A stretch of DNA of 64,000 nucleotides from contig JACRBM010000067.1 of the NCBI GenBank assembly GCA_016219275.1, positions 62,001 to 126,000 of the forward strand, in the 5' to 3' direction. The notes below the pieces were generated by a model. It ran no database searches and was not told where the DNA came from. It saw only the letters and a list, made by a program, of their open reading frames with translations. Within the stretch, counting starts at the first letter, position 1. The number at the start of each line of letters is the position of its first letter. Origin of the DNA: Chloroflexota bacterium (GTDB taxonomy: Bacteria > Chloroflexota > Anaerolineae > UBA4142). Below, piece by piece: positions 50,586 to 63,973 of the stretch. A program made the translations under genes and the position numbers.

Positions 50586-52190
50586 TCAAATTAATTCAGA
50601 GACATACGCATCAAAGCGCGCGCGTAATTCTCCGGACGGCAACGAGTTTGATATCTGGCGCGCGGTAACCCGCGCGCGTGTTGCCAATGTGTCATCCCCC
50701 CGCACTTGAAGTAGCGCGATGGCAGTCCGCAGGAATAGAGTTGGATTGTCGGTTGGTTGAACGATTTCATGCGCCGTGTCCAAATCGGAAATTCCGGCGG
50801 CGTGATCGCCCTTGGCGAGCCGGGCTTGTCCGCGTGTGACGAGCGCCGCGATTTCGTATTTGACGCGAAAGGTCGCGCGGCTCTGCTCGAGGGATTCGTT
50901 TGCCTTTTCAATCGCCTCGTCGTATTGGGAACGCGCGAGCGCGAGCTCGGCGCGGGCTTGGACGAACCGGTTTTGCCATAACCAGCGATGACTCCCATAC
51001 GTCAAGGGGATAGCGTCGGCTACTTCTTTCATCAGATGCTCGGCGCCGTGCACGAGACCGCGCCGCGCAAAGTTCAATAACAAATCAATTGCCGCGCTGA
51101 CTTGGGCGGGACCAAACTTGGCGGCGCGACCGATCTCCCGCGCTTCCCGCGCGAGCGTTTCTGCGCCGGCAAAATCAAAGAGATCGAGATGAACGCCGCC
51201 TTCCATCGCGACGGCGCGCGCGAGCCACGGACCTCCGCCATGCTCCCGCGCAAATTCACGCGCCCGGCGAAACGTATCCAACGCCGCGCCATAGTGTCCC
51301 ATCCCCGCCTGCGCCAATCCCAGGATGCCGAAACTTTGCATGATGGTCGTGTTGTCGAAAATTTCGAAAGCGCGCGTGATGGCGGTCTCATTCGCTTCTA
51401 TTGCCGGTTGGTATTCACCGAGCCAATAGCGCGTCAGACCCACCAGCGATATGGCTTGGATCAACTCCGGTGTGCGTAATTCGCGGGCGCGACTAAAGGC
51501 GCGCTCAAACATCGCGATGCCGGCGCGCGGGCGTCCTTGCGCCGTTTCCCAAAATGCAATGCCGCACATCGCGCTGGACGCGAGTTTGTCATTGCCGAGC
51601 TGTTCCGCCAGGGCTAATGCTTCTTCGCCGACTTGATGCGCGGCTTGAGCATCGAATAACCAACGGTAAACATTGGCGAGGTAGAGCAACACTTGTGCCC
51701 GTTGTTCCAGTTGCGTCGGGGACAAAAGCGCCAGCGCGCTCTCCAATTCCTTTTTTGCTTCAGTCCACGCCGCCAGCTCCGTCAATGCTTTGCCGCGTTC
51801 AGTATGCAAAGATGCCTTCAGTCGGTTATCGTTGCGCCGTTCGGCGATGGCAAGCGCACGCGAGATCAGTTCCACTTGTTCGCGCGCGGCGAAAGACCGC
51901 CGCGCATATTCTGCCGCCCGCTGAAGATATTCCAATGCCTTGCGGTCTTCTTCCGCGCATTCGAAATGTTGCGCCAGCAACGCGGCGTGCTCGTCTAGTT
52001 GGTCGGCATAAAGTTGTTCACAGGCGAACGCCACGCGGCGATGAATCTCGCGACGTTGTTTTTGCAACAGCGATTGGTACGCCGCGTCTTGCGTCAACGC
52101 GTGTTTGAAGATATACGCCGGTTCGGCATCAATCAAATGCCGCACCAGTTGCGCGGTTTCGAGTTGCGCGAGGGTGTCTTGTACACTCAT
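50586..52190 (-). CDS. stand-alone TPR protein of the cyclase family, copy 2
   Basis: The 534-residue protein starts MSVQDTLAQLETAQLVRHLIDAEPAYIFKHALTQDAAYQSLLQKQRREIHRRVAFACEQLYADQLDEHAALLAQHF. TPR-like repeats follow, with a different C-terminus (ARFDAYVSELI) from copies 1, 3 and 4. ATG 52190 overlaps the copy 1 stop (ATGA), so translation is coupled. Confidence 0.77.
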   Translation of the reverse strand: MSVQDTLAQLETAQLVRHLIDAEPAYIFKHALTQDAAYQSLLQKQRREIHRRVAFACEQLYADQLDEHAALLAQHFECAEEDRKALEYLQRAAEYARRSFAAREQVELISRALAIAERRNDNRLKASLHTERGKALTELAAWTEAKKELESALALLSPTQLEQRAQVLLYLANVYRWLFDAQAAHQVGEEALALAEQLGNDKLASSAMCGIAFWETAQGRPRAGIAMFERAFSRARELRTPELIQAISLVGLTRYWLGEYQPAIEANETAITRAFEIFDNTTIMQSFGILGLAQAGMGHYGAALDTFRRAREFAREHGGGPWLARAVAMEGGVHLDLFDFAGAETLAREAREIGRAAKFGPAQVSAAIDLLLNFARRGLVHGAEHLMKEVADAIPLTYGSHRWLWQNRFVQARAELALARSQYDEAIEKANESLEQSRATFRVKYEIAALVTRGQARLAKGDHAAGISDLDTAHEIVQPTDNPTLFLRTAIALLQVRGDDTLATRARVTARQISNSLPSGELRARFDAYVSELI

Positions 52191-53974
52191 CGCGACTCTA
52201 TCACCGCGCGCACAGCAGGCAAACTCAAAAACGATTCGCGCAAACTTGTCCCGCGCGAAGTCGAGGAATCCTCCGGCGTGTGCGCGGCGATGAAAGCGAT
52301 CACCTCACGCGCGTAGGTGCGCATGGTCTCGGCGGCGGCGAGATCGCCGTGCGCCTCGGCGACCTGGCTTTGGGCAACCAGGATTGTCCACAACGCGCGC
52401 CGCGAACCGAGCGCTTGCGCGTCGTCATATGCTTGACCCAGGACGGCTTGGGCTTGGTTCAGTTCACCTTTTGCCAACCAGGCGCGTCCCTGCAAAGCCA
52501 GGATGTCTGAAACGAATGGTCGAAACTGGACGGCACGCGCCCGCACCAGGATGTCTTCAGTCATCGCGAGAACGCGCGCGGGTTCGCCACGCGCGAGCGC
52601 GATTTCGCCGTGGACTCCGACGATGAAGATCGGCGCAAACCAACTCAGGTCGTTCAGATCAAGGTTTTTTGCGGCTTCTTGAATGAGGGAATCGGCGCGC
52701 GTCAGATTTCCATTCAGGCGATATAGTTCTGCCAGGATGGCTGATAACCAAGCGCGAAATGGCACATTCAGGTCTTTGGCTTGGACGAGACTGGCTTGAA
52801 CAAGTTCGATGCCGGCTTCCGGATTCCCCATCAGCCCGTACACCCAGCCCAGCATCCCACGCGCGAGCGCGGCGCCGATCACGAAACCGGCTTGCTGACC
52901 CAGCTCGGTCGCTTGGCGCAATGCGTGGATGGCATCCGCGACCATGCCGCGTTCGAACGCGAGATACCCAATTGCCCATTGACTGTACGACTGATTCCAC
53001 AAGTTGCCGATGGACTGGCTGATCGTGAATGCCTCGCGCGCAAGACGATCCGCCGTGTCGTAATCACCACTGTAGAAATACCCTTCCGCAGAGGTGGCGA
53101 GATTGTCGGCGAGCATGGGCAGGTTGTCCAACTCGCGCCACAACTCGCGTGCCTGCGCGATGACCGCGCGCCCTTCTTCGATGCGTCCGACCGCGTAATA
53201 ATTACGCGACAGATCATTCAGCGTAAATGCCGTTTGCTCGTTCAAGTTCAATCGTCGCGCGAGCGCGAGCGATTCCTCGCCGTGACGAACCGCGCGTGGA
53301 TAGTCAGACCGAAAATAATCTGCCAACATCATCGTCCAAAGGATTTTTGATTCCGCTTTCGCATCGTCCAACTCGCGCGCGAGCGAAAGCGCGCGGTTGG
53401 ACAATTCTTGCGCCAGCGCCAGGTCTTGTCCCTGCGTCGGCGCGGAGTGCACGGTCGCGCGCGCCATCAGCGAGGCGAGTTCCATCGCGCGGTTGCCGCG
53501 CGCGTGCGCGCATGTTTCCATCGCGCGGTAATTCGCGAGCGCGTCGGTATAGCGTCCCGACATTTCTAACGCGCGTCCGAGTTTGAGGTACACCTCCTGG
53601 AGCGGTGAATCGCGCGCGCCGATCCGTTGCGCGATTTCGACGGCGCGTGTGTAATGCATGATCGCCTCGGCGTTGGCATACACGCGCGCCGCCGCGTCGC
53701 CCGCGCGCATCGAATACTCCAGGGTCTTGGCGTCGTCCCCCGCTTCGCCGTAGTGTTGCGCGAGCAACGCGGCAACCCCGTCGAGTTGTCCATCGGCGAC
53801 TTGTTCGTACGCGCGTGCGACGCGCAGATGAATGTCGCGGCGTGTCGCACGCAAGAGTGAGTGATAAATGGTCTCTTGCGTCAAGGTATGTTTGAACGCA
53901 AACGACTCGTCCGCCTCGACTCGGCGCACGAGTTGTGCGCTTTCAAGTTGAGTTAGCCATGTGTCAAGATTCAT
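52187..53974 (-). CDS. stand-alone TPR protein of the cyclase family, copy 1
   Basis: The 595-residue protein starts MNLDTWLTQLESAQLVRRVEADESFAFKHTLTQETIYHSLLRATRRDIHLRVARAYEQVADGQLDGVAALLAQHY. In the full-length paralogue the matching stretch (LDGALANLQRRELVREK..FKHALTQETAY) directly follows the ATPase domain. The short cyclase at 54768 ends just before that point, so copy 1 looks like its detached C-terminal half. It ends RESFLSLPAVRAVIESR. It is the first gene of the TPR array, separated from the short cyclase by a two-gene module on the other strand. Confidence 0.78.
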   Translation of the reverse strand: MNLDTWLTQLESAQLVRRVEADESFAFKHTLTQETIYHSLLRATRRDIHLRVARAYEQVADGQLDGVAALLAQHYGEAGDDAKTLEYSMRAGDAAARVYANAEAIMHYTRAVEIAQRIGARDSPLQEVYLKLGRALEMSGRYTDALANYRAMETCAHARGNRAMELASLMARATVHSAPTQGQDLALAQELSNRALSLARELDDAKAESKILWTMMLADYFRSDYPRAVRHGEESLALARRLNLNEQTAFTLNDLSRNYYAVGRIEEGRAVIAQARELWRELDNLPMLADNLATSAEGYFYSGDYDTADRLAREAFTISQSIGNLWNQSYSQWAIGYLAFERGMVADAIHALRQATELGQQAGFVIGAALARGMLGWVYGLMGNPEAGIELVQASLVQAKDLNVPFRAWLSAILAELYRLNGNLTRADSLIQEAAKNLDLNDLSWFAPIFIVGVHGEIALARGEPARVLAMTEDILVRARAVQFRPFVSDILALQGRAWLAKGELNQAQAVLGQAYDDAQALGSRRALWTILVAQSQVAEAHGDLAAAETMRTYAREVIAFIAAHTPEDSSTSRGTSLRESFLSLPAVRAVIESR

Positions 53975-54025
53975 GTTTTACGAACGACCTGTTCTTGTGT
54001 TATATTCAAAGCAAGGAGTTGGCTT

Positions 54026-54382
54026 ATGTCTGCGATTGTTTCTGCACGCGCGATTCCAAGCGAACAACGAACTGAACATCCCCAGATCACGCGGATCCAA
54101 GGTGTTCAAGGTGGCATTCCGATCGTGCGCGGGACACGCATCCCGGTGCGTCTCATCGCGCAAATGTACCGCGCCGGTGACTCCGTTGACGATATTCTCA
54201 AGACCTATCCTCATCTTGGCGCGACATCGGTTCACGACGCGATTAGTTATTATCTCGACCATCGCGCGGAAATCGAGCAGGAAATCATTGAGCACCGCGT
54301 TGAAAATATTCTAGCGCAGAACGCTGCGCGCGCGGATGAGCGCGGCTCTATCATTTTTAATCAAGCGCCGAAAGATGCCTGA
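54026..54382 (+). CDS. DUF433-family protein (probable antitoxin)
   Basis: The 118-residue protein contains the DUF433 core ITRIQGVQGGIPIVRGTRIPVRLIAQMYRAGDSVDDILKTYPHL, followed by VHDAISYYLDHRAEIEQEI. It is a small winged-helix-like protein often encoded before a DUF5615 PIN-like toxin, as here. AAGGAG precedes ATG 54026. It runs against the TPR/cyclase genes on both sides, so it appears to be an inserted module. Confidence 0.85.
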   Translation: MSAIVSARAIPSEQRTEHPQITRIQGVQGGIPIVRGTRIPVRLIAQMYRAGDSVDDILKTYPHLGATSVHDAISYYLDHRAEIEQEIIEHRVENILAQNAARADERGSIIFNQAPKDA

Positions 54383-54434
54383 AGAACCTCGTTGATTCAT
54401 CGCGCTTTACACTGACGAAGACGTAACAAGCGAG

Positions 54435-54755
54435 TTGGCGGAAGCGATTCGACAGCGCGGTCTTGCCGCGCAAAGCGCCGCTGAAGCCGGCTTGTTGGAT
54501 GCGGATGATCCCGTGCATCTTGCGTACGCGTCTGAATGTGGGATGGCGTTACTCACTTACGATGCCCGCGACTTTCTCCCGTTGGCAAAGCAATATGCTA
54601 ATGAGGGCAAGCCACACGCGAGCATTATCATTTCTGCCGAGCAGTTTAGCCGCCGACGCTTTGGCGAATTTCTGCGCCAAGTTCTTCGTCTGATGAATGC
54701 GCTCACCGCTGACGAAATCCGAAATCGCGTCGTCTACTTGCAAGAGTTCAAATAG
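54435..54755 (+). CDS. DUF5615 PIN-like toxin component with no normal start codon
   Basis: The clear homology includes ALYTDEDVTSELAEAIRQRG, DDPVHLAYASECGMALLTYDARDFLPLA and RFGEFLRQVLRLMNAL. The conserved acidic start (LYTDEDV) is coded at 54402-54425, but no ATG, GTG or TTG lies before it after the in-frame stop at 54393-54395. The first usable codon is TTG 54435, which would drop that motif. Either a rare ATC start (54399) is used or the gene has lost its start and is inactive. It lies 52 bases after the DUF433 gene. Confidence 0.6.
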   Translation: MAEAIRQRGLAAQSAAEAGLLDADDPVHLAYASECGMALLTYDARDFLPLAKQYANEGKPHASIIISAEQFSRRRFGEFLRQVLRLMNALTADEIRNRVVYLQEFK

Positions 54756-54767
54756 TTTTTCCCCGTT

Positions 54768-56663
54768 TTACGCCGCCTGCTCCAACACGCGCTCCAACAC
54801 CTTGACCTGGAATTTGCGTCCGATGACCGACGCGATTTGCAACACGCGTTTGGCTTCGTCGGGCAAGCGATCAATGCGCGCGCTCAACACGCCTTGCAAC
54901 GTGTCCGGAATTTCGATGTTGTTGATTTCGCGCGTCACCGTCCATTTGCTATCTTGCCGCGCAATGCCGCCGCGATCAATCAACATGCGCAACACTTCTT
55001 CGACGAAAAATGGATTGCCTTCGGCTTTCGCGAGAATCATCTGCCGCAAATTTTCTGGCAACGCTTCGACTTCGAGCAAGTTGCTCACGAGCACTTTGCT
55101 GTCCGCGTCCGAGAGCGGCGCGAGATGCAATTCCATCGCGCCGACGCCGGCAATCTCGTGCGCGCGCGAAACGAGTTTCCAGCCCGCGCTGTCGCGATCT
55201 GCGCGCGTGACGAGCGCGACGGCGAGCGGCGCGTCGGCGACGAGCGACAACACCTGCGCGCCCAACTCGACGGACGAGGGGTCCGCCCAGTGAACATCTT
55301 CGCAAATAATGATCGTCGGCTGCATTTTGGCGGTGGCTTGCAACAGATGTTTGTACGCGGCGATGTACTTGGCTTGCAATGCCGGACCGTCGAGGTATTT
55401 CACGCGCGCCGCCATCTCTTCTTCGAGTTGCAAACCCAGCAAGTGACCCAGGTACGGGTACACGTCTTTCATCTCCGCGCCAAGCAACGTTTCGGTCGTG
55501 CGCCACAACGCGCGATGCGTTTCGTCCTCGGATGAGCCCGCGGGCGCGTTAATCAGTCCGCGCAAAATATCGGTGCTGAGGTGGTGCGCGATAGACGCGC
55601 CGTACGACAAGCAGCGTCCCTCGACCCAGCAAATCGGTTTGTCCGCATCCACGTGCGCGGCTTTGCGCCACTCGGCGACGAGCCGCGATTTGCCCAGCCC
55701 CGCTTCGCCGATGATCGCGACAATCGAGCCGCGCCCGGCGCGCACATCCGCGAGAATCTGGAGCAGGGTCGCAAACTCGCGCGCGCGTCCGACGAGTGGC
55801 GACGACAAGCCGGCAACGCCGCGCGTCCGCACCGCGCCCTTGCGTTCGCCGATGACGCGGAACACCTGGATCGGCTCGGCTTTGCCTTTGACGGTGATCT
55901 TGCCCTTGTCTTCGAATTCAAAGAGCGACGCGGCGAGACGATGCGTGCTTTCCGAAATCAACAGCGTATCCGGTTCCGCCGCGCCTTGCATCCGCGCGGC
56001 GAGATTCACTGTATCGCCAATCGCGAGGTACTCCATGTGCAAGTCGCTGCCGATGTTGCCGACGACGACCAGTCCCGTATTCAGTCCGACGCGCATCTGG
56101 AAATCCTCGACGTGTTTGCGCGGCGCATCGCGCAATTCGTTCGCGTACGCGCGGATGCGTTCGAGCATGTCGAGCGCCGCGCGGATCGCGCGTTCCGCAT
56201 CGTCCTCGTGCGCGAGCGGCGCGCCGAAAAACGCGAGCACGCCGTCGCCGAGCAGTTGGGCGATCGTGCCTTCGTAGCGATAGACCGCTTCGCTCACGCA
56301 CCGATGCGCACCCGAAACGATCTCGCGCCAATCCTCCGGGTCCATCTGTTCGGCGAGCGCGGTCGAGCCGACGATGTCGGCAAAGAGCGCGGTGACGAGT
56401 TTGCGTTCGCCCTCGGCGTGTTCGCGTTCAGCGAGAATTTTGTTTGCGACCGCGGCAGGCGCGTTCTTTCGCAACGCGTCGAGCGAACCACTGCGCGCGG
56501 CAGGCGCTTCGCTAGACAGATTGAAACCACAATGTTTGCAAAAACGCGCGGCGGGAGGAATCGTCTTGCCGCAATTCGGGCACGCGCGTTCCATGGGCTT
56601 GCCGCAGTTCTCGCAAAATTTTCCGTCGGCGGAATTTTCAAATGAACAATTGGGACATTTCAT
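54768..56663 (-). CDS. zinc-ribbon, class III cyclase and AAA ATPase protein without TPR part
   Basis: The 631-residue protein has two zinc ribbons (1-47; CPNC..CENC and CPNC..CKHC). A class III nucleotide cyclase domain follows (about 83-255) with metal-binding Asp in FADIVGST and GDGVLAFFG, and the Asn/Arg pair in GDTVNLAARM. An AAA_16-type ATPase (about 280-631) has GEAGLGKSRL and the Walker B-like IIICEDVHWADPSS. All cyclase catalytic residues are present. The reading frame stops at RVLEQAA, where the full-length paralogue continues into the FKHALTQ linker and TPRs. The missing part is encoded separately, on the far side of the DUF433 module. Confidence 0.88.
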   Translation of the reverse strand: MKCPNCSFENSADGKFCENCGKPMERACPNCGKTIPPAARFCKHCGFNLSSEAPAARSGSLDALRKNAPAAVANKILAEREHAEGERKLVTALFADIVGSTALAEQMDPEDWREIVSGAHRCVSEAVYRYEGTIAQLLGDGVLAFFGAPLAHEDDAERAIRAALDMLERIRAYANELRDAPRKHVEDFQMRVGLNTGLVVVGNIGSDLHMEYLAIGDTVNLAARMQGAAEPDTLLISESTHRLAASLFEFEDKGKITVKGKAEPIQVFRVIGERKGAVRTRGVAGLSSPLVGRAREFATLLQILADVRAGRGSIVAIIGEAGLGKSRLVAEWRKAAHVDADKPICWVEGRCLSYGASIAHHLSTDILRGLINAPAGSSEDETHRALWRTTETLLGAEMKDVYPYLGHLLGLQLEEEMAARVKYLDGPALQAKYIAAYKHLLQATAKMQPTIIICEDVHWADPSSVELGAQVLSLVADAPLAVALVTRADRDSAGWKLVSRAHEIAGVGAMELHLAPLSDADSKVLVSNLLEVEALPENLRQMILAKAEGNPFFVEEVLRMLIDRGGIARQDSKWTVTREINNIEIPDTLQGVLSARIDRLPDEAKRVLQIASVIGRKFQVKVLERVLEQAA

Positions 56664-56740
56664 AAGGCACTCCGTATTGCGAATGGCGAATGGCTATTTC
56701 GTATTGCGTGATGCGTGATAGGTGAAACTCTCTTCACGCA

Positions 56741-59700
56741 TCACATTTGAGTTGATGCATGCTCAACATACTTTGCGCGCAGCGTGTCATCGCGAATCAA
56801 CGCGGCGATTTCATCGCGCAGCGCGCGCGCGGCTTGACGCTGGGCATTCGCTTCCTCTACGCGTTTCAACGCGTCGAGCGCGTGCGCCGCGCCGAGATGC
56901 GCGCGCAACCGTGCGGGACGCATTTGCATCGCGCGCGCGAGTTCTGTGGCTTGCGTGAATTGCTCGAGCGCGTATGGTATGTCGCCGCGCGCGACGCTCA
57001 CGCGCGCATCGGCAAGCGTGATCTCTGGGTACAGGTGTTGCATCGCGCGCGCCGAGGCGTACTCGCGCGCATCCGCGATCAATTGCGCGGCATCGGCGAA
57101 TTGTTCGCGCGCGAGCGCGACGTAGGCGCTGCCCAGCAACAGATTCGCCTTGACCATTAAACCCATCGTCGTCGGATAGTTCAATCCTTTTTGAAACATT
57201 TCGGTCGCGCGATCGAGATTCCCAACAGTGAGCGCGCAGAATCCCATGTCCGTCCACGCCGTCGCGCACATGCTCGCAATCATGGGATTGCTCGCCATTT
57301 GCAAAACCTGGGAATGCAATTCAATCGCCTTGTCCGCAAAAACCGGGCTGATGTCGAGCCAGGTTGAGCCGAGTGCGCCGAGTCCCAAAAGATCCATGCC
57401 GGGAAATGCGATCTTGCCGGCATTGGTGGATTGTTCGAAATGATGGATCGCGTTTTCATATTCGCCGCGCAAGCGCGCAATCGTGCCAAGCATATAATTG
57501 CCGTCCGCCAATGCCATCGCCGCGCCGATGCGTTGACCAATGGCAACTCCCCGTTGACCGTACTCGCGCGCCTGGTCCAGTTCGCCATTGCGAATGTGAA
57601 CAAAGGCGTACACGCCGGCGAGCAGTTCGGCTTGATGTTGCCGGTCGCCGATCTCTTCGCAGATTTGCATCGCCTCTTGCGCTTTTTGCCACGCGTCGTC
57701 GAAGTTGGTAATGAACATCAGCGTGTTCGCCGTGTGGGTCATGCCGAACGCCATTTGTTCTTTCACATTCAGTTCGCGTCCCACTGCGACGGATTCGCCG
57801 AGATATTTGATCGCGTTGTCGAAATCGCCGGTGCCGGTGCAGATGCCGCAACGCACGGTGAAAAGTTCCGACAGTCCCGCGCGGTCGTTTGCCGCGCGCG
57901 CGATTTTCTCCGATTCACGCAGATTGGTTTCGACGTTAGCGAAATCGCCGATGAGCAACTGGGTCATCGCGAGTTTGTTCAGCGCGGAAACTTGCATCGG
58001 CGCGTCATGGTGCGCTTCGGCAAACGCGAGCATGGCTTGATGATTCTGGAGCGTGCGCGGCACATCGCCGATGAGCAAAAGGGCGTTGCCCAGTCCTTCG
58101 TAGGCGCGCCGCGCGTGCGGGACATCATTTTGGGTATGCGCGATTTCGACCGCGCGCGAAAAGTAGCCGATCGCTTCCGGCGTCGAGTACTCTCGCGCGG
58201 CGCGGCTTCCCGCCTCGATCAAGTACGGCAACGCGCGCGCCGGTTCTTGCGCCTCGCTGAAATGCCGCGCGAGATCGTAAACGCGTTCCTTGTCTAATCG
58301 CTCTAAACAATCGCCGACGCGATGATGCAACGCGCGGCGTTTGCTCAAAAGCATCGAGGCGTACGCGGTTTCTTGCGTGAGCGCGTGTTTGAACAGATAG
58401 ACGAAATCCGGCGCGCGCGATTTTTCGCGGACGAGTTCACGGCGTTGCAGGTTTGCCAGTGCGCCGTCGAGGGATTGCGGCGCGTCGGCGACGTTGGACA
58501 GAATCGCGAACGGAAACTCGCGTCCGATGACCGCCGCAGTTTGCGCCGTCTGCTTCGACGTCTCGTCGAGCCGGTCGAGCCGCGCGCCGATGACGCCGGC
58601 AAGCGTGTCGGGGATCGCGATGTTTTCGATTTCGCGCGTCGCGCGCCAATGTCCGTTATCGCGCACGACGAGTTTCGCGTCGAGCAGCGAGCGAATCACT
58701 TCTTCGACGAAGAACGGATTGCCTTCGGCTTTTTTCAGAATCAGCGCGCGCACCTTTTCCGGCAAGTCCTCGATATGCAAGAGACTCGCGACGAGCGCGC
58801 GTGAATCGTTCTCGTCGAGCGGTTCGAGCGTGATCGGCGTGTACCGATGCGCGTAATCGCGCGACGCGAGTTCGTGGAAACGCCACGAGGGTTCTTGCCG
58901 TTGCGGACGAAACGCGGCGATGAGTAAAAGTGGAACGCGTTCGGTGAGCGGCAAAATCTGTTCGATCAAATCGAGCGAGGTCGCGTCCGCCCAGTGCAAA
59001 TCTTCGAACAGGAGGACGAGCGGAGTCGCGCGCGCGGTTTGTTCGACCCAGGTTCCAATCGCTTGGAAAATCGCGGCGCGTAGTTGCGGCGGTTCGAGGT
59101 AACGCACGCGCTCGCCGTCCTCGTCACTCGGCTGGATACGCAGCATCGTTGCGAGGAACGGCGCGCCGTCGCCCGCGCGCGTTTTGATTTTCGTGTACGC
59201 GTCCGCGATATTCTCGTCGCCGTGGAGGTCGAACGCCTTGTGGAACAGATCAATGAACGGCGCGTACGGCGTGTTTGTTTCAAACGACAACGAGCGACCC
59301 TCGAGCCATTGGAGGTTGGAGGTTGGATTCCCTCCAACTTCTAATTTCCAATTTCTAACTTCCAATTTCCGCACTTCCGCCATCAACCGCGATTTGCCGA
59401 GACCGGCTTCGCCCATGATCGCGACGATGTGTCCGTGCCCGGCTCGTACTTCTGCGAGGCGCGTGTGCAAGAGTTGCATCTCGCGGTCGCGTCCGATGAG
59501 CGGCGCGTCGAGTCCGGCGATGCCGCGTGCGGATTCGGCGACGGCTTTGCGCGCGCGGACGCGAAACGCGGCGACCGGTTCGCTCTTGCCTTTCACCTGA
59601 ATCGCGCCCGGCGATTCGAGGTCGAACGCGTGCTTAACCGCGCGCGCGGTATTCGGCGCGAGCAAAATCGTCCCAGGGTCTGCCGCGCTCTGCATGCGCG

Positions 59701-60355
59701 CCGCAAGATTCACCGTGTCGCCGACCGCGAGGTACTCGACGTGCATGTCGCTGCCGATGTTGCCGACGACGACGAGTCCGGTATTCAAGCCGACGCGCAT
59801 TTGAAATCGCTCGACGCGTTTGCGCGAGGCGACGCGCAGTTCGGTTTCGTATTCGGTGATCCGTTGCAAAATGTCTACCGCCGCGTTGACCGCGCGTTCG
59901 GGATCGTCCTCGTGCGTGATTGGCGCGCCGAAAAACGCGAGCACGCCGTCGCCGAGCAGTTGCGCGATCGTGCCCTCGTAGCGGTACACCGCCGCGCTCA
60001 CGCGTTGATGCGCGCCGGTGACGATCTCACCCCAGTCTTCGGGATCGAGTTGTTCCGCGAGCGCGGTCGAGCCGACGATGTCGGTAAAGAGAACCGTGAC
60101 CAGTTTGCGTTCGCCAGCCATGGGCGCGCTCGGCGCGCGATCTTTTTCGGGGAGAGTTTTCGGCGCGGATTGTGGGAGATCGGTCAAACGACCGGGAGGG
60201 GTGTTGACAAGGTTGAATCCACACGCGCGACAGAATTTCGCATCCCACGCGACCGGTTTACCGCAATTTGGGCAGGTGCGTTCAAGCACGTTGCCGCAGT
60301 TCTCGCAGAATTTCGATTCGGCTGGGTTGTCATGCGCGCAATTAGGACATTTCAT
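56741..60355 (-). CDS. full-length zinc-ribbon, class III cyclase, AAA ATPase and TPR protein
   Basis: The 1204-residue protein has two zinc ribbons (1-47), a cyclase domain (about 77-250) with FTDIVGST, GDGVLAFFG and GDTVNLAARM, an AAA_16 ATPase (about 265-600) with GEAGLGKSRL, and LLFEDLHWADATSLD. The linker FVYLFKHALTQETAYASMLLSKRRALHHRVGDCLERL follows, then TPR repeats to the end. It is the intact model for the split genes next to it. After the P-loop, residues around LEVRNWKLEVGGNPTSNLQ come from a low-complexity repeat absent from the short paralogue. It probably makes cAMP under control of ATPase and TPR inputs; ligands unknown. Confidence 0.9.
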   Translation of the reverse strand: MKCPNCAHDNPAESKFCENCGNVLERTCPNCGKPVAWDAKFCRACGFNLVNTPPGRLTDLPQSAPKTLPEKDRAPSAPMAGERKLVTVLFTDIVGSTALAEQLDPEDWGEIVTGAHQRVSAAVYRYEGTIAQLLGDGVLAFFGAPITHEDDPERAVNAAVDILQRITEYETELRVASRKRVERFQMRVGLNTGLVVVGNIGSDMHVEYLAVGDTVNLAARMQSAADPGTILLAPNTARAVKHAFDLESPGAIQVKGKSEPVAAFRVRARKAVAESARGIAGLDAPLIGRDREMQLLHTRLAEVRAGHGHIVAIMGEAGLGKSRLMAEVRKLEVRNWKLEVGGNPTSNLQWLEGRSLSFETNTPYAPFIDLFHKAFDLHGDENIADAYTKIKTRAGDGAPFLATMLRIQPSDEDGERVRYLEPPQLRAAIFQAIGTWVEQTARATPLVLLFEDLHWADATSLDLIEQILPLTERVPLLLIAAFRPQRQEPSWRFHELASRDYAHRYTPITLEPLDENDSRALVASLLHIEDLPEKVRALILKKAEGNPFFVEEVIRSLLDAKLVVRDNGHWRATREIENIAIPDTLAGVIGARLDRLDETSKQTAQTAAVIGREFPFAILSNVADAPQSLDGALANLQRRELVREKSRAPDFVYLFKHALTQETAYASMLLSKRRALHHRVGDCLERLDKERVYDLARHFSEAQEPARALPYLIEAGSRAAREYSTPEAIGYFSRAVEIAHTQNDVPHARRAYEGLGNALLLIGDVPRTLQNHQAMLAFAEAHHDAPMQVSALNKLAMTQLLIGDFANVETNLRESEKIARAANDRAGLSELFTVRCGICTGTGDFDNAIKYLGESVAVGRELNVKEQMAFGMTHTANTLMFITNFDDAWQKAQEAMQICEEIGDRQHQAELLAGVYAFVHIRNGELDQAREYGQRGVAIGQRIGAAMALADGNYMLGTIARLRGEYENAIHHFEQSTNAGKIAFPGMDLLGLGALGSTWLDISPVFADKAIELHSQVLQMASNPMIASMCATAWTDMGFCALTVGNLDRATEMFQKGLNYPTTMGLMVKANLLLGSAYVALAREQFADAAQLIADAREYASARAMQHLYPEITLADARVSVARGDIPYALEQFTQATELARAMQMRPARLRAHLGAAHALDALKRVEEANAQRQAARALRDEIAALIRDDTLRAKYVEHASTQM
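59313..59378 (-). repeat. low-complexity repeat embedded in the full-length cyclase gene
   Basis: On the minus strand GGAAATTGGAAGTTAGAAATTGG-like tandem words code for LEVRNWKLEVGGNPTSNLQ, in frame, between the P-loop helix and WLEGRSL. The short paralogue has AAHVDADKPIC at this place. The peptide NPTSNLQ also occurs in the AroA insert. Confidence 0.8.
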
Positions 60356-60761: not shown

Positions 60762-61685
60762 TTACTCGGCGCCGTTGCCGGGTTTTTTCGGGTTGTGATT
60801 CCATGCGACGCGCGCCAATCCTTCAAAGAACTCTGGGACGCCTTGCCCGGTCGAGCAGGAGGATTCGTAGCACGGCATCTTCCAGGAGCCGGCAATCGCG
60901 TTCACTTCTTCGCTGCCGATCTGGCGCGGGAGATCGGTTTTGTTCGCGAGCAAGACTGCCGGGGTATTGCCGAGAAACTCGCGCGATTCGCGCCACCAGC
61001 GCATCAAGTTGTAAAACGATACGCGATTGCTCACGTCGAAGATCAAGCCCACGGCGCGCGCACCGCGATAAAACGCTTGGCGCGTCAGCGCGAATCGTTC
61101 CTGTCCGCCCAGATCCCACACCACGAGCCGGACAGGCGCGTTGTCGAGCCGAATGTCGTACGTGTGAAAATCCACGCCGATGGTCATCGCGCGTTTCGGG
61201 TCGAACATGCCGGTGCAGTAGCGTTGAATCAAACTCGTCTTGCCGACATTCGCGTCGCCGCCGAGCACGACCTTGAGCACGGTTGGTTTCAGCGGCGGTA
61301 CGTTGACTTGGCGCGGAAACGCGTTGCCGATCAACTGCGCCAGTTCATCTACGAGAAATGGCTTGTCGAGATAGTGCCCGACGAAACCTAGTTCCGGCAA
61401 GCGCACGTCGGGCGAGCCGAACGCGGTCATCAAAATGGTGACGCAATCGGCGCATGCGTTTTTCGCTTCGCGCATGAGTGTCAGTCCATCTATGTCCGGC
61501 ATGATCCAATCGGCAATGACGAGATCGAACGGCGAGTTCTGGATCGCCTGTCGCGCGGCTTGCCCCGTCGTGAATGCGCGAACGTCAAACATGTCGCGCC
61601 GGTTCAACTCGTTCACGATGAGGTCCACGATTCGTTTATCGTCGTCCACGATGAGGACGCGGCGTTTGTTGATCGCAGTGTTCAT
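60762..61685 (-). CDS. receiver domain fused to a Ras/Rab-like small GTPase
   Basis: The 307-residue protein has a receiver domain (about 8-120) with the acceptor Asp in LVIADWIMPDIDG (Asp59), MTAFGS and DKPF. A small GTPase follows (about 130-300). All five G motifs are visible: GGDANVGKTS (142-151), Thr in AMTIGVDFHTYD, DLGGQE (191-196), NKTD (248-251) and SCSTG. ATG 61685 is used; ATG 61706 would add seven residues, and neither has a strong ribosome binding site. The gene lies last in an operon with two Roadblock/LC7 proteins, the usual GTPase partners. Confidence 0.88.
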   Translation of the reverse strand: MNTAINKRRVLIVDDDKRIVDLIVNELNRRDMFDVRAFTTGQAARQAIQNSPFDLVIADWIMPDIDGLTLMREAKNACADCVTILMTAFGSPDVRLPELGFVGHYLDKPFLVDELAQLIGNAFPRQVNVPPLKPTVLKVVLGGDANVGKTSLIQRYCTGMFDPKRAMTIGVDFHTYDIRLDNAPVRLVVWDLGGQERFALTRQAFYRGARAVGLIFDVSNRVSFYNLMRWWRESREFLGNTPAVLLANKTDLPRQIGSEEVNAIAGSWKMPCYESSCSTGQGVPEFFEGLARVAWNHNPKKPGNGAE

Positions 61686-61743
61686 TGGGTTGAGTGTGTG
61701 TCTCATGCTTCACGCTTGCCTGTGGCAAAGAAGGAGAATGCGT

Positions 61744-62016
61744 TTAGAATATCGCATCCAGGTAATCGCGCTCGCGCGCCAAACGCCGACGCCAGCCGTT
61801 GATTTCGGGCACGATAAACGGCAAGAGGCGCATGCAATAGTACGGCGGCAGAATAGGCAAGCCAACCATATCGCCGAACGTAATCATAATAAAAAGATGT
61901 TCCAGCGCGCCACGCGAGCGGCGATGCGAGCGTTCGATTTCGTGCAGCGCCATGCCGTACATCACTTCGCCCAGCACGCGCCGGACATGTTCAAGTCGAG
62001 TACGCCAACCGGTCAT
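61744..62016 (-). CDS. hypothetical small protein of the GTPase/Roadblock operon
   Basis: The 90-residue protein is not recognised. It has a basic, helical N-terminal half (GWRTRLEHVRRVLGEV, HEIERSHRRSRGALEHL) and a hydrophobic stretch in the middle (LFIMITFGDMVGLPILPPYYCMRLLPFIV) that could be membrane-associated. AAAGGAAC lies upstream of ATG 62016. It starts 14 bases after the Roadblock gene and ends 58 bases before the GTPase, so it probably works with them, perhaps at the membrane. Confidence 0.7.
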   Translation of the reverse strand: MTGWRTRLEHVRRVLGEVMYGMALHEIERSHRRSRGALEHLFIMITFGDMVGLPILPPYYCMRLLPFIVPEINGWRRRLARERDYLDAIF

Positions 62017-62030
62017 CGGTTGTGTTCCTT

Positions 62031-63284
62031 TCAATACAGCGACATATCGGGACGACCCACGAACGTATCCGCCCGGATGGGGGTTGCGTACCAGCGAATC
62101 GTCTCGCCCAAACTTGCTCGGGTTTGCCAGCGCAAACTTTTCGGCGTAACCTGTATACCGCTTCTCAGGCGACGCGCTTGGTCAATCACGCGGTCGCGAT
62201 GAATCTGGACCAGCTTCTGTTCGGCGTAGGCGATGAGCAGGTCGAGGTTTTTGGTAACCGTTTTGTACCAGCCCCAATCCTCCGTGCAGAGTTGGGTGAT
62301 GAGGGAGGAATCAATTTTGTCTTTTTCAGGCGTCCGACTCAGGTCGTGTTCGATGAACAACGCCGCCAAATCGCCCAGGTCGCCCATCGTTGCCTCGACA
62401 TTTTGAAGGCGGATCAAGGTCAGCATCGTTTCAGAGATGGTGGATCCCTTTTGCGCCAAGAGCGGTTTCATGTCGAGACGATGGTACATCTCAAAGACAT
62501 CGAGAAAGATATTGATGCTCAACGCGCGGAGTGGATTGCCAAAGTGAAGACGCTCGCTCCCGTGCATGCTGTTAAAGCGTTGATTAGGTTGATAACCCAT
62601 TTGCTCAAAAAATGTTCCGAGTTGATTCGCTTGACTGGAGGCGCACAGAAAATCCATGTTCCGCTTTTGCGGTTGGGTGAGCATCCGCCGCGTCTCGGCG
62701 CACCGAATCCAGGGCGCGACCGGATCCATCGCGATGAGAGTGATTTGATTGGTCCGGCTCGCTTCGGCGAGACGTTGCGCTTCCGCCAAAAGCTCGCCAA
62801 GCAAGGGGTTGGGCGCGATCCCGTCGGGCTGTTCGGTCACGGGCGCGAGCATGACCGGTGCCGGAGTCGCCGGCGCAACGGGCGTTGGTTGGACAGGCGA
62901 AGGCGCAACGGGCGGAGGCGTCGCGGCGATGCGCGCAGGTTCTAGCTCAACCGTGATTTTTTTGATCGCGTTCGTGGTGGACAAATTTAACAGAGGGATG
63001 TTGATATTTCGCGCGCAGAGGATGACCAGGATACCGTGGGGCAGGTTCTTGAGAATCAAACGACCTTGCCCGTACATCAGGTCCGCTTCGGTGATGCGCT
63101 GACCGAACGAATCCAGTGCCTGGAAAGTTTGGCTGGCGAGGCGCGCCATCATGTCTGCATGTGACGCGTCGAATTGCGCCGGCAATGCCTGGGCAGACAC
63201 GGTACCATCGCCCAGGCAGATCAATGAACCCGTTACGCCTAGCACATGGTTGATTTCTTTGAGCGTTGTTTCTAGCGGTTCCAC
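62031..63284 (-). CDS. Roadblock/LC7-domain protein with long C-terminal extension
   Basis: The 417-residue protein has an N-terminal Roadblock/LC7-like domain (about 1-110; TLKEINHVLGVTGSLICLGDG, LILKNLPHGILVILCARNINIPLL). A Pro/Ala/Val-rich linker follows (about 120-160), then an unrecognised helical domain of about 250 residues. GTG 63284 is preferred because GGAG lies 6 bases before it; TTG 63296 is the alternative. Roadblock proteins bind and regulate small GTPases. The partner here would be the receiver-GTPase encoded downstream. Confidence 0.75.
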   Translation of the reverse strand: MEPLETTLKEINHVLGVTGSLICLGDGTVSAQALPAQFDASHADMMARLASQTFQALDSFGQRITEADLMYGQGRLILKNLPHGILVILCARNINIPLLNLSTTNAIKKITVELEPARIAATPPPVAPSPVQPTPVAPATPAPVMLAPVTEQPDGIAPNPLLGELLAEAQRLAEASRTNQITLIAMDPVAPWIRCAETRRMLTQPQKRNMDFLCASSQANQLGTFFEQMGYQPNQRFNSMHGSERLHFGNPLRALSINIFLDVFEMYHRLDMKPLLAQKGSTISETMLTLIRLQNVEATMGDLGDLAALFIEHDLSRTPEKDKIDSSLITQLCTEDWGWYKTVTKNLDLLIAYAEQKLVQIHRDRVIDQARRLRSGIQVTPKSLRWQTRASLGETIRWYATPIRADTFVGRPDMSLY

Positions 63285-63307
63285 GGTGAACTCCAACCCC
63301 AGTCTCT

Positions 63308-63973
63308 TTATTTGCGAAGGGTTTCTTTGGCGGCGGTGGTGACAATGGCAGGGGAGGTACGTTCGCCGGACAAGACCAGCCCCACAAAGCGATCGGGCAA
63401 TTGGAGGACGAGGAGCCGTTTGTCTTTCAAGGTCACCACACCGTGTGAAAGCAAACCCATTTGCAACGTCTCGCCCATTTGCTCCGCGGCGGAGCCAACA
63501 AACACCGCGACCGCGGCTTCTTGCTCGCCGTCACTGCCGGGGATGTCCGCGCCCAGGACGATGCCGTCCGAAGCGGAGATCACTGCGCCGGTTACCCCTT
63601 CAATCGCGCGTAATTGTTTGAGTGTAGCTTGGGTCTTGTTTTTTTCTGCTTCGGCTTTGGAGGCGGTTTTTTCGGGCACCCGCATCATTCCCTGCAACAG
63701 CAGTTCGTTCCAATTGAGAGAAATAGTTTTCCCAGGAGAGGGGGCATCGCGGTCGAGCATGAACGCGCCGTTATCCCACGCGAGCATTTCAAAGACCGCT
63801 TCGATGCCGATTTTGTCGTCCAGTACGGCGTGGACGACTTGACCATCGGAAAAATAGACCTCACCATTCCGTCCATCGTAGGTCAACTGTAGGCGTGCAG
63901 AACGCATCTCCTGACAGTTGACTTGGATCAGATTGGCGAGGCTCATTTCGACAAGACTGCCCTGCAATGGCAT
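63308..63973 (-). CDS. DUF4388 (PATAN) and Roadblock/LC7 protein
   Basis: The 221-residue protein begins with a DUF4388/PATAN-like domain (about 1-105; MPLQGSLVEMSLANLIQVNCQE, GEVYFSDGQVVHAVLDDKIG, AWDNGAFMLDRDA). It ends with a Roadblock domain (about 115-215; LKQLRAIEGVTGAVISASDGIVLG, GVVTLKDKRLLVLQLPDRFVGLVLS). DUF4388 is common in bacterial GTPase-linked and two-component systems. AAGGAT lies before ATG 63973, so the gene is complete and is the first in the GTPase operon as far as the window shows. Confidence 0.85.
   Translation of the reverse strand: MPLQGSLVEMSLANLIQVNCQEMRSARLQLTYDGRNGEVYFSDGQVVHAVLDDKIGIEAVFEMLAWDNGAFMLDRDAPSPGKTISLNWNELLLQGMMRVPEKTASKAEAEKNKTQATLKQLRAIEGVTGAVISASDGIVLGADIPGSDGEQEAAVAVFVGSAAEQMGETLQMGLLSHGVVTLKDKRLLVLQLPDRFVGLVLSGERTSPAIVTTAAKETLRK

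Follow-up and report, generated by a model that had tools for sequence, protein, structure and literature searches.

Among the closest described systems, MglA/MglB/RomR of Myxococcus xanthus comprises a Ras-superfamily GTPase regulated by a Roadblock protein and a receiver-domain protein, in which MglB acts as GAP and the receiver-containing RomR/RomX as GEF for MglA (PMC9481161, PMC6785124). According to the consulted passages of a survey published in 2014 on Ras-like GTPases of prokaryotes (PMC4316618), the actinobacterial conservons (CvnA-D) are operons in which two-component signalling is linked with a small GTPase and a Roadblock protein, and the Rup GTPases, whose function is not known, are Ras-like GTPases of prokaryotes that lie outside the MglA family and occur in Chloroflexi. 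The survey covered GTPases of a single domain; these passages report PATAN genes near some MglA members as well as links to RomR and the conservons, and do not describe a receiver-GTPase fusion. No description of such fusions was found in the open-access literature searched either. In the known systems of the literature searched, two-component signals reach Ras-like GTPases via separate proteins (RomR, conservon kinases).

Here we describe a four-gene locus (genes A to D) of a Chloroflexota bacterium of the class Anaerolineae, located in the window, i.e., the whole stretch of 64,000 nucleotides that was analysed, in which a receiver and a Rab/Ras-type GTPase are encoded as one chain.

Layout and distribution of the locus

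Four open reading frames on the minus strand were present in the ORF list of the window:

Gene A, 63308-63973, minus strand: PATAN (DUF4388) plus Roadblock/LC7 protein, 221 aa (Pfam, 73.4 and 28.8 bits); DUF4388/PATAN at about 63671-63964, Roadblock/LC7 at about 63386-63631.
Gene B, 62031-63296, minus strand: predicted Roadblock plus decayed nucleotidyltransferase-fold protein (AlphaFold2 and fold search), 421 aa from TTG at 63296, with GTG at 63284 as possible alternative start; Roadblock at about 62937-63284, nucleotidyltransferase fold at about 62076-62804.
Gene C, 61744-62016, minus strand: small protein with a predicted helical hairpin, 90 aa from ATG at 62016; the alternative start TTG at 62034 gives 96 aa (61744-62034 in the ORF list).
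Gene D, 60762-61706, minus strand: receiver plus Rab/Ras-type GTPase, 314 aa (Pfam, Response_reg 65.6 bits and Ras/PF00071 126.9 bits); receiver at about 61329-61664, GTPase at about 60798-61280.

For gene C, the ATG start was favoured by its homologues. Because the four genes lie on a single strand with gaps of about 11, 14, and 37 bases, they very likely form an operon, and the recurrence of the same order in 14 genomes indicated that the arrangement is not due to chance. The neighbourhood survey proposed in the first-pass annotation found A-B-C-D with a recognisable receiver in seven genomes of the window's family. In seven genomes of a second Anaerolineae family, A-B-C was followed by a GTPase whose N-terminal domain is degenerate; one of these loci, starting at B with A beyond the contig end, was counted among the 14. 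In the window and four relatives (one with a partial gatB at the contig end), the operon was located directly behind gatB.

Fusions of receiver and GTPase turned up in the window's family alone, with none outside it among 400 Chloroflexota genomes, and 72,556 plasmid records contained no match to D over its full length. A contig scan of 84,980 species genomes with the D alignment, which used two conserved peptide patterns only and which distant receiver-Ras fusions could escape, yielded 14 loci from Chloroflexota MAGs with matches to both domains and one weak Clostridia match to the receiver only. Defence-system models gave no meaningful match to the four operon proteins.

Downstream of the operon and on the same strand, two zinc-ribbon/class III cyclase/AAA-16 proteins are encoded (54768-60355), whose matches to Pycsar-cyclase models came from the cyclase domain only. 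A toxin-antitoxin-like DUF433/DUF5615 gene pair on the plus strand (53975-54767) is flanked by a 631-aa zinc-ribbon/cyclase/AAA part (54768-56663) and a 595-aa TPR part (52187-53974). Since the paralogue of this split gene at 56741-60355 is one continuous gene of 1204 aa, the pair looks like an insertion that split its host gene.

The receiver-GTPase fusion protein D

Both Pfam matches of D were well above cut-off. The GTPase part contained G1 (GGDANVGKTS, residues 149-158), the switch-I threonine (T175), G3 (WDLGGQE, 197-203), G4 (NKTD, 255-258), and G5 (SSCSTG, 282-287); with G1 to G5 complete and both Asp and Gln in G3, D is a member of the Ras-superfamily small GTPases (Rab/Ras type). Its best solved relatives were Rab23, Rab33B, Sec4, and a Thorarchaeota Rab. 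Motifs and profile scores therefore agreed with the initial description of a Ras/Rab-like GTPase with all five G motifs fused to a receiver. That this receiver is of a phosphorylatable type was likewise borne out, the full residue set of response-regulator receivers being present (D21/D22, D66, T94, and K115).

Across 16 aligned fusion proteins, G150/G155/K156 of the P-loop, D198/Q202 of G3, and N255/K256/D258 of G4 were invariant; the switch-I Thr was found in 14 and the receiver phospho-Asp and Lys in 15 of them. The orthologue in one genome of the window's family (G002) carried D66E and K115Q and had lost the acidic pair. In the second family, the domain N-terminal to the GTPase was degenerate, with no Pfam receiver match in the three proteins scanned. 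Within the window's family, sequence identity was 29-64% for the receiver vs. 66-79% for the GTPase domain.

Membership of the MglA family was assessed by the replacement of the conserved G3 Asp by Thr, the Thr78 feature of MglA (PMC3000849), together with clustering with MglA-like proteins. It was rejected for D, as D198 is present in G3 and the tree placed D outside the MglA-like clade (99/98 support). In this tree, free GTPases grouped with the window type (95/93); the deeper branches lack resolution, so that the receiver fusion may have arisen once or more than once. A separate MglA-like GTPase gene, with its own Roadblocks, is located elsewhere in the same genome.

A second, paralogous type of receiver-GTPase fusion lay next to an OmpR-type regulator gene, in clusters that further encoded PATAN and Roadblock proteins together with a dCache-HAMP protein and an MglA-like GTPase. 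One such cluster (L070) included a Pfam-confirmed histidine kinase, with similar-sized genes at that place in two others (L064, L066). A fusion of a receiver with a Roadblock domain (genome G031; L090, 3727-4605, 292 aa) adjoined an OmpR-type regulator as well as genes for PATAN-Roadblock and Roadblock proteins, showing that receivers were coupled to GTPase/Roadblock machinery more than once.

The Roadblock proteins A and B and the small protein C

Two Roadblock/LC7 proteins, one of them with PATAN, had been proposed as co-encoded partners, and both were recovered: A by profile and B by predicted fold. In A, the Robl_LC7 score exceeded the Pfam cut-off of 23 bits beside the strong DUF4388/PATAN match, and orthologues shared 59-65% identity in the window's family and 37-41% in the second family. 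B scored 15.5 with the Robl_LC7 profile, under the same cut-off. Its AlphaFold2 model consisted of two confident domains (mean pLDDT 88.5). In a fold search with this model, residues 2-123 matched MglB, on which the predicted domain superposes, and other Roadblocks with Z 15-17 (best 16.9 over 112 residues), so that by its modelled fold, rather than by profile, B clearly carries a Roadblock domain.

Residues 164-342 of the B model matched the nucleotidyltransferases ANT(2'')-Ia and LnuA (Z 12.3-12.6). The domain had been annotated as large and unknown; it is large, and its predicted fold is that of a decayed nucleotidyltransferase. Relatives of it occurred as free-standing proteins in many Anaerolineae genomes and matched PF14907 (NTP_transf_5), one of them above cut-off. 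At the positions of the signature of active nucleotidyltransferases (G-G/S, Asp-x-Asp, and a third Asp), window B has MD, N-M-D, and N, i.e., GG and the first catalytic Asp were gone. The first Asp was absent from 11 out of 11 aligned B proteins of the window operon type, whereas Asp-x-Asp was kept in all four B proteins of MglA-type operons and in all ten free-standing relatives. Because the signature had decayed in every aligned window-type B and was kept elsewhere, window-type B is probably a pseudoenzyme.

Four genomes of two other families had A and B beside an MglA-like GTPase in place of D and C. As A and B stay when the GTPase is replaced, this pattern points to regulation of the GTPase by A and B, which look like a general regulator pair of Ras-like GTPases. 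The operons at L075-L078 contained A, B, further Roadblocks, and an MglA-like GTPase, and their B keeps the nucleotidyltransferase catalytic signature. A GAF-GAF histidine kinase (Pfam) was encoded upstream in L075, with similar-sized genes there in L076 and L077.

The most conserved product of the operon was C, with 59-64% identity between window and second family; the GTPase reached 52-54%, and the Roadblock and nucleotidyltransferase parts 36-40%. Across both families its identity was 55-82%, with 44 invariant positions in seven sequences. The small protein of the initial description thus exists, but its suspected membrane association found weak support: the best 19-residue hydropathy was 1.53, and the helical hairpin was modelled with moderate confidence (pLDDT 75.6). 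A fold search with this model gave no match, which says little at such confidence. Assignment to cory-CC-star (NF041419), for which no literature was found, was rejected, as the score of 32.9 bits (E 4.9e-8, 60 positions aligned) was far under the curated cut-off of 80; by sequence, C is at most a distant relative.

C was 40-58% identical to small proteins of an ArsA-associated type. The C family had members in 71 of the 249 Anaerolineae genomes, in most cases arranged in tandem pairs, and ArsA-type P-loop genes adjoined them in 10 of the 13 regions fetched (Pfam-confirmed for L126). At L126 (5433-8114) and similar loci in many Anaerolineae, tandem C-like pairs were followed by two ArsA-type ATPases, often with CstA nearby. 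C accompanied every GTPase of the window operon type and was present in none of the MglA-type operons. In genomes G007, where it lies behind gatB, and G095, C was retained alone while A, B, and D were missing (L161, 862-1134; L162, 1092-1358). Its survival without these genes suggests that C has some other role too.

Proposed mechanism, alternatives, and relation to known systems

We consider it slightly more likely than not, with a probability of about 0.55, that the operon encodes one signalling module around the GTP switch D, which would be biased by its receiver, set by the Roadblock proteins, and act with or through C. This reading builds on domains, motifs, gene order, conservation, loss patterns, and the predicted fold of B, from which we infer phosphorylation, GTP cycling, every contact, and the direction of control. 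The N-terminal receiver of D would bias the nucleotide state of the attached Ras/Rab-type GTPase and would probably be phosphorylated by a histidine kinase encoded elsewhere. No kinase gene adjoins the window copy. A and B may dimerise and bind D as GAP, GEF, or docking platform, A contributing a PATAN docking domain and B a nucleotidyltransferase fold that lacks catalysis and probably provides a binding surface. C would partner closely with this branch of GTPases and be the likeliest place for the switch to act on something older, since its relatives are associated with ArsA/Get3-type ATPases and C is retained where the switch is missing. Such an arrangement may let a bacterial kinase pathway act directly on a eukaryote-like GTP switch.

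The direct link between switch and phosphorelay claimed in the first-pass annotation fits the window protein, with its intact receiver residues, but not all of its relatives: G002 lacks the phospho-Asp, and the receiver is unrecognisable in the second family. As the operon is kept in both cases, phosphorylation is therefore dispensable in at least some versions. The same retention of A, B, C, and the GTPase, the lower conservation of the receiver than of the GTPase domain in the window's family, and the missing kinase neighbour would also suit a receiver that is mainly a structural or dimerisation domain, with A and B alone setting the GTPase and phosphorylation carrying little or no weight. 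We regard this as a tentative alternative, because D66, T94 (or Ser), and K115 are kept in the window protein and most fusion proteins of its family, and the paralogous fusion adjoins two-component genes. About equally doubtful is a reading in which C is the core, assisting ArsA/Get3-type P-loop ATPases or the membrane step that these serve, and A, B, and D are a signal-responsive add-on adjusting it. The conservation of C, the frequent ArsA-type neighbours of its family, and the two lone copies argue for it; however, the window genome encodes its ArsA ATPases, together with C paralogues of their own, on a different contig, and nothing observed ties window C to them.

The polarity function that had been suggested by analogy with Myxococcus received no specific support. 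Roadblock, Ras-like GTPase, and receiver are the ingredients of MglB, MglA, and RomR, and the genome encodes several type IV pilus/Tad-type ATPases, but matches to PF00437 occurred in 14 out of 14 control genomes, and neither the operon nor its immediate neighbours included a recognisable gene for pili or motility. With D being Rab-like and an MglA-like gene with its own Roadblocks present separately, an MglAB-like system for surface motility or pilus placement appears very improbable. A bolder extension of the switch-centred reading, which we consider rather unlikely, is that a phospho-gated Ras/Rab-type GTPase took over a partner of ArsA/Get3-type ATPases, so that two-component signals would steer a membrane-targeting or similar ATPase-linked step, and that the B of MglA-type operons, with its intact catalytic signature, may act on the GTPase by chemical modification. 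A comparable case is the AMPylation of Rab1 by DrrA.

For the signalling module around D, the presence of receiver and Rab-like GTPase on one chain provides a direct experimental handle on phosphorylation vs. GTP turnover, and a natural comparison of otherwise matching operons, in which the receiver is intact, decayed, or lost, shows which step is kept by evolution. Neither a Roadblock-nucleotidyltransferase fusion nor a protein family common to Ras-like GTPases and ArsA-type ATPases, as C represents, was found described in the literature searched. The C-terminal domain of B has the predicted fold of NTP_transf_5 and aminoglycoside nucleotidyltransferases, but in window-type B it is fused to a Roadblock domain and its catalytic GG and Asp-x-Asp have decayed; C is distantly similar in sequence to cory-CC-star and to the ArsA-associated small proteins, but its neighbour here is a Ras-like GTPase. 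Compared to MglA/MglB/RomR, the receiver is fused to the GTPase, the GTPase is of the Rab/Ras type, having both Asp and Gln in G3, the Roadblocks carry additional PATAN and nucleotidyltransferase-fold domains, and protein C is added. In contrast to the conservons, as described in the consulted part of the 2014 survey, the operon has no kinase gene, has a receiver and a GTPase outside the MglA family, and contains no recognised CvnC counterpart. Rup Group 1, according to the same source, lacks the catalytic Gln that D possesses and has neighbourhoods of a coiled-coil protein, an OmpA-type protein, and a cyclase/kinase, unlike the window operon (PMC4316618). Judged by the sequence features tested, the operon thus resembles MglA/MglB/RomR and the conservons in principle and belongs to neither; it is a new variant of the bacterial GTPase/Roadblock modules that they represent.
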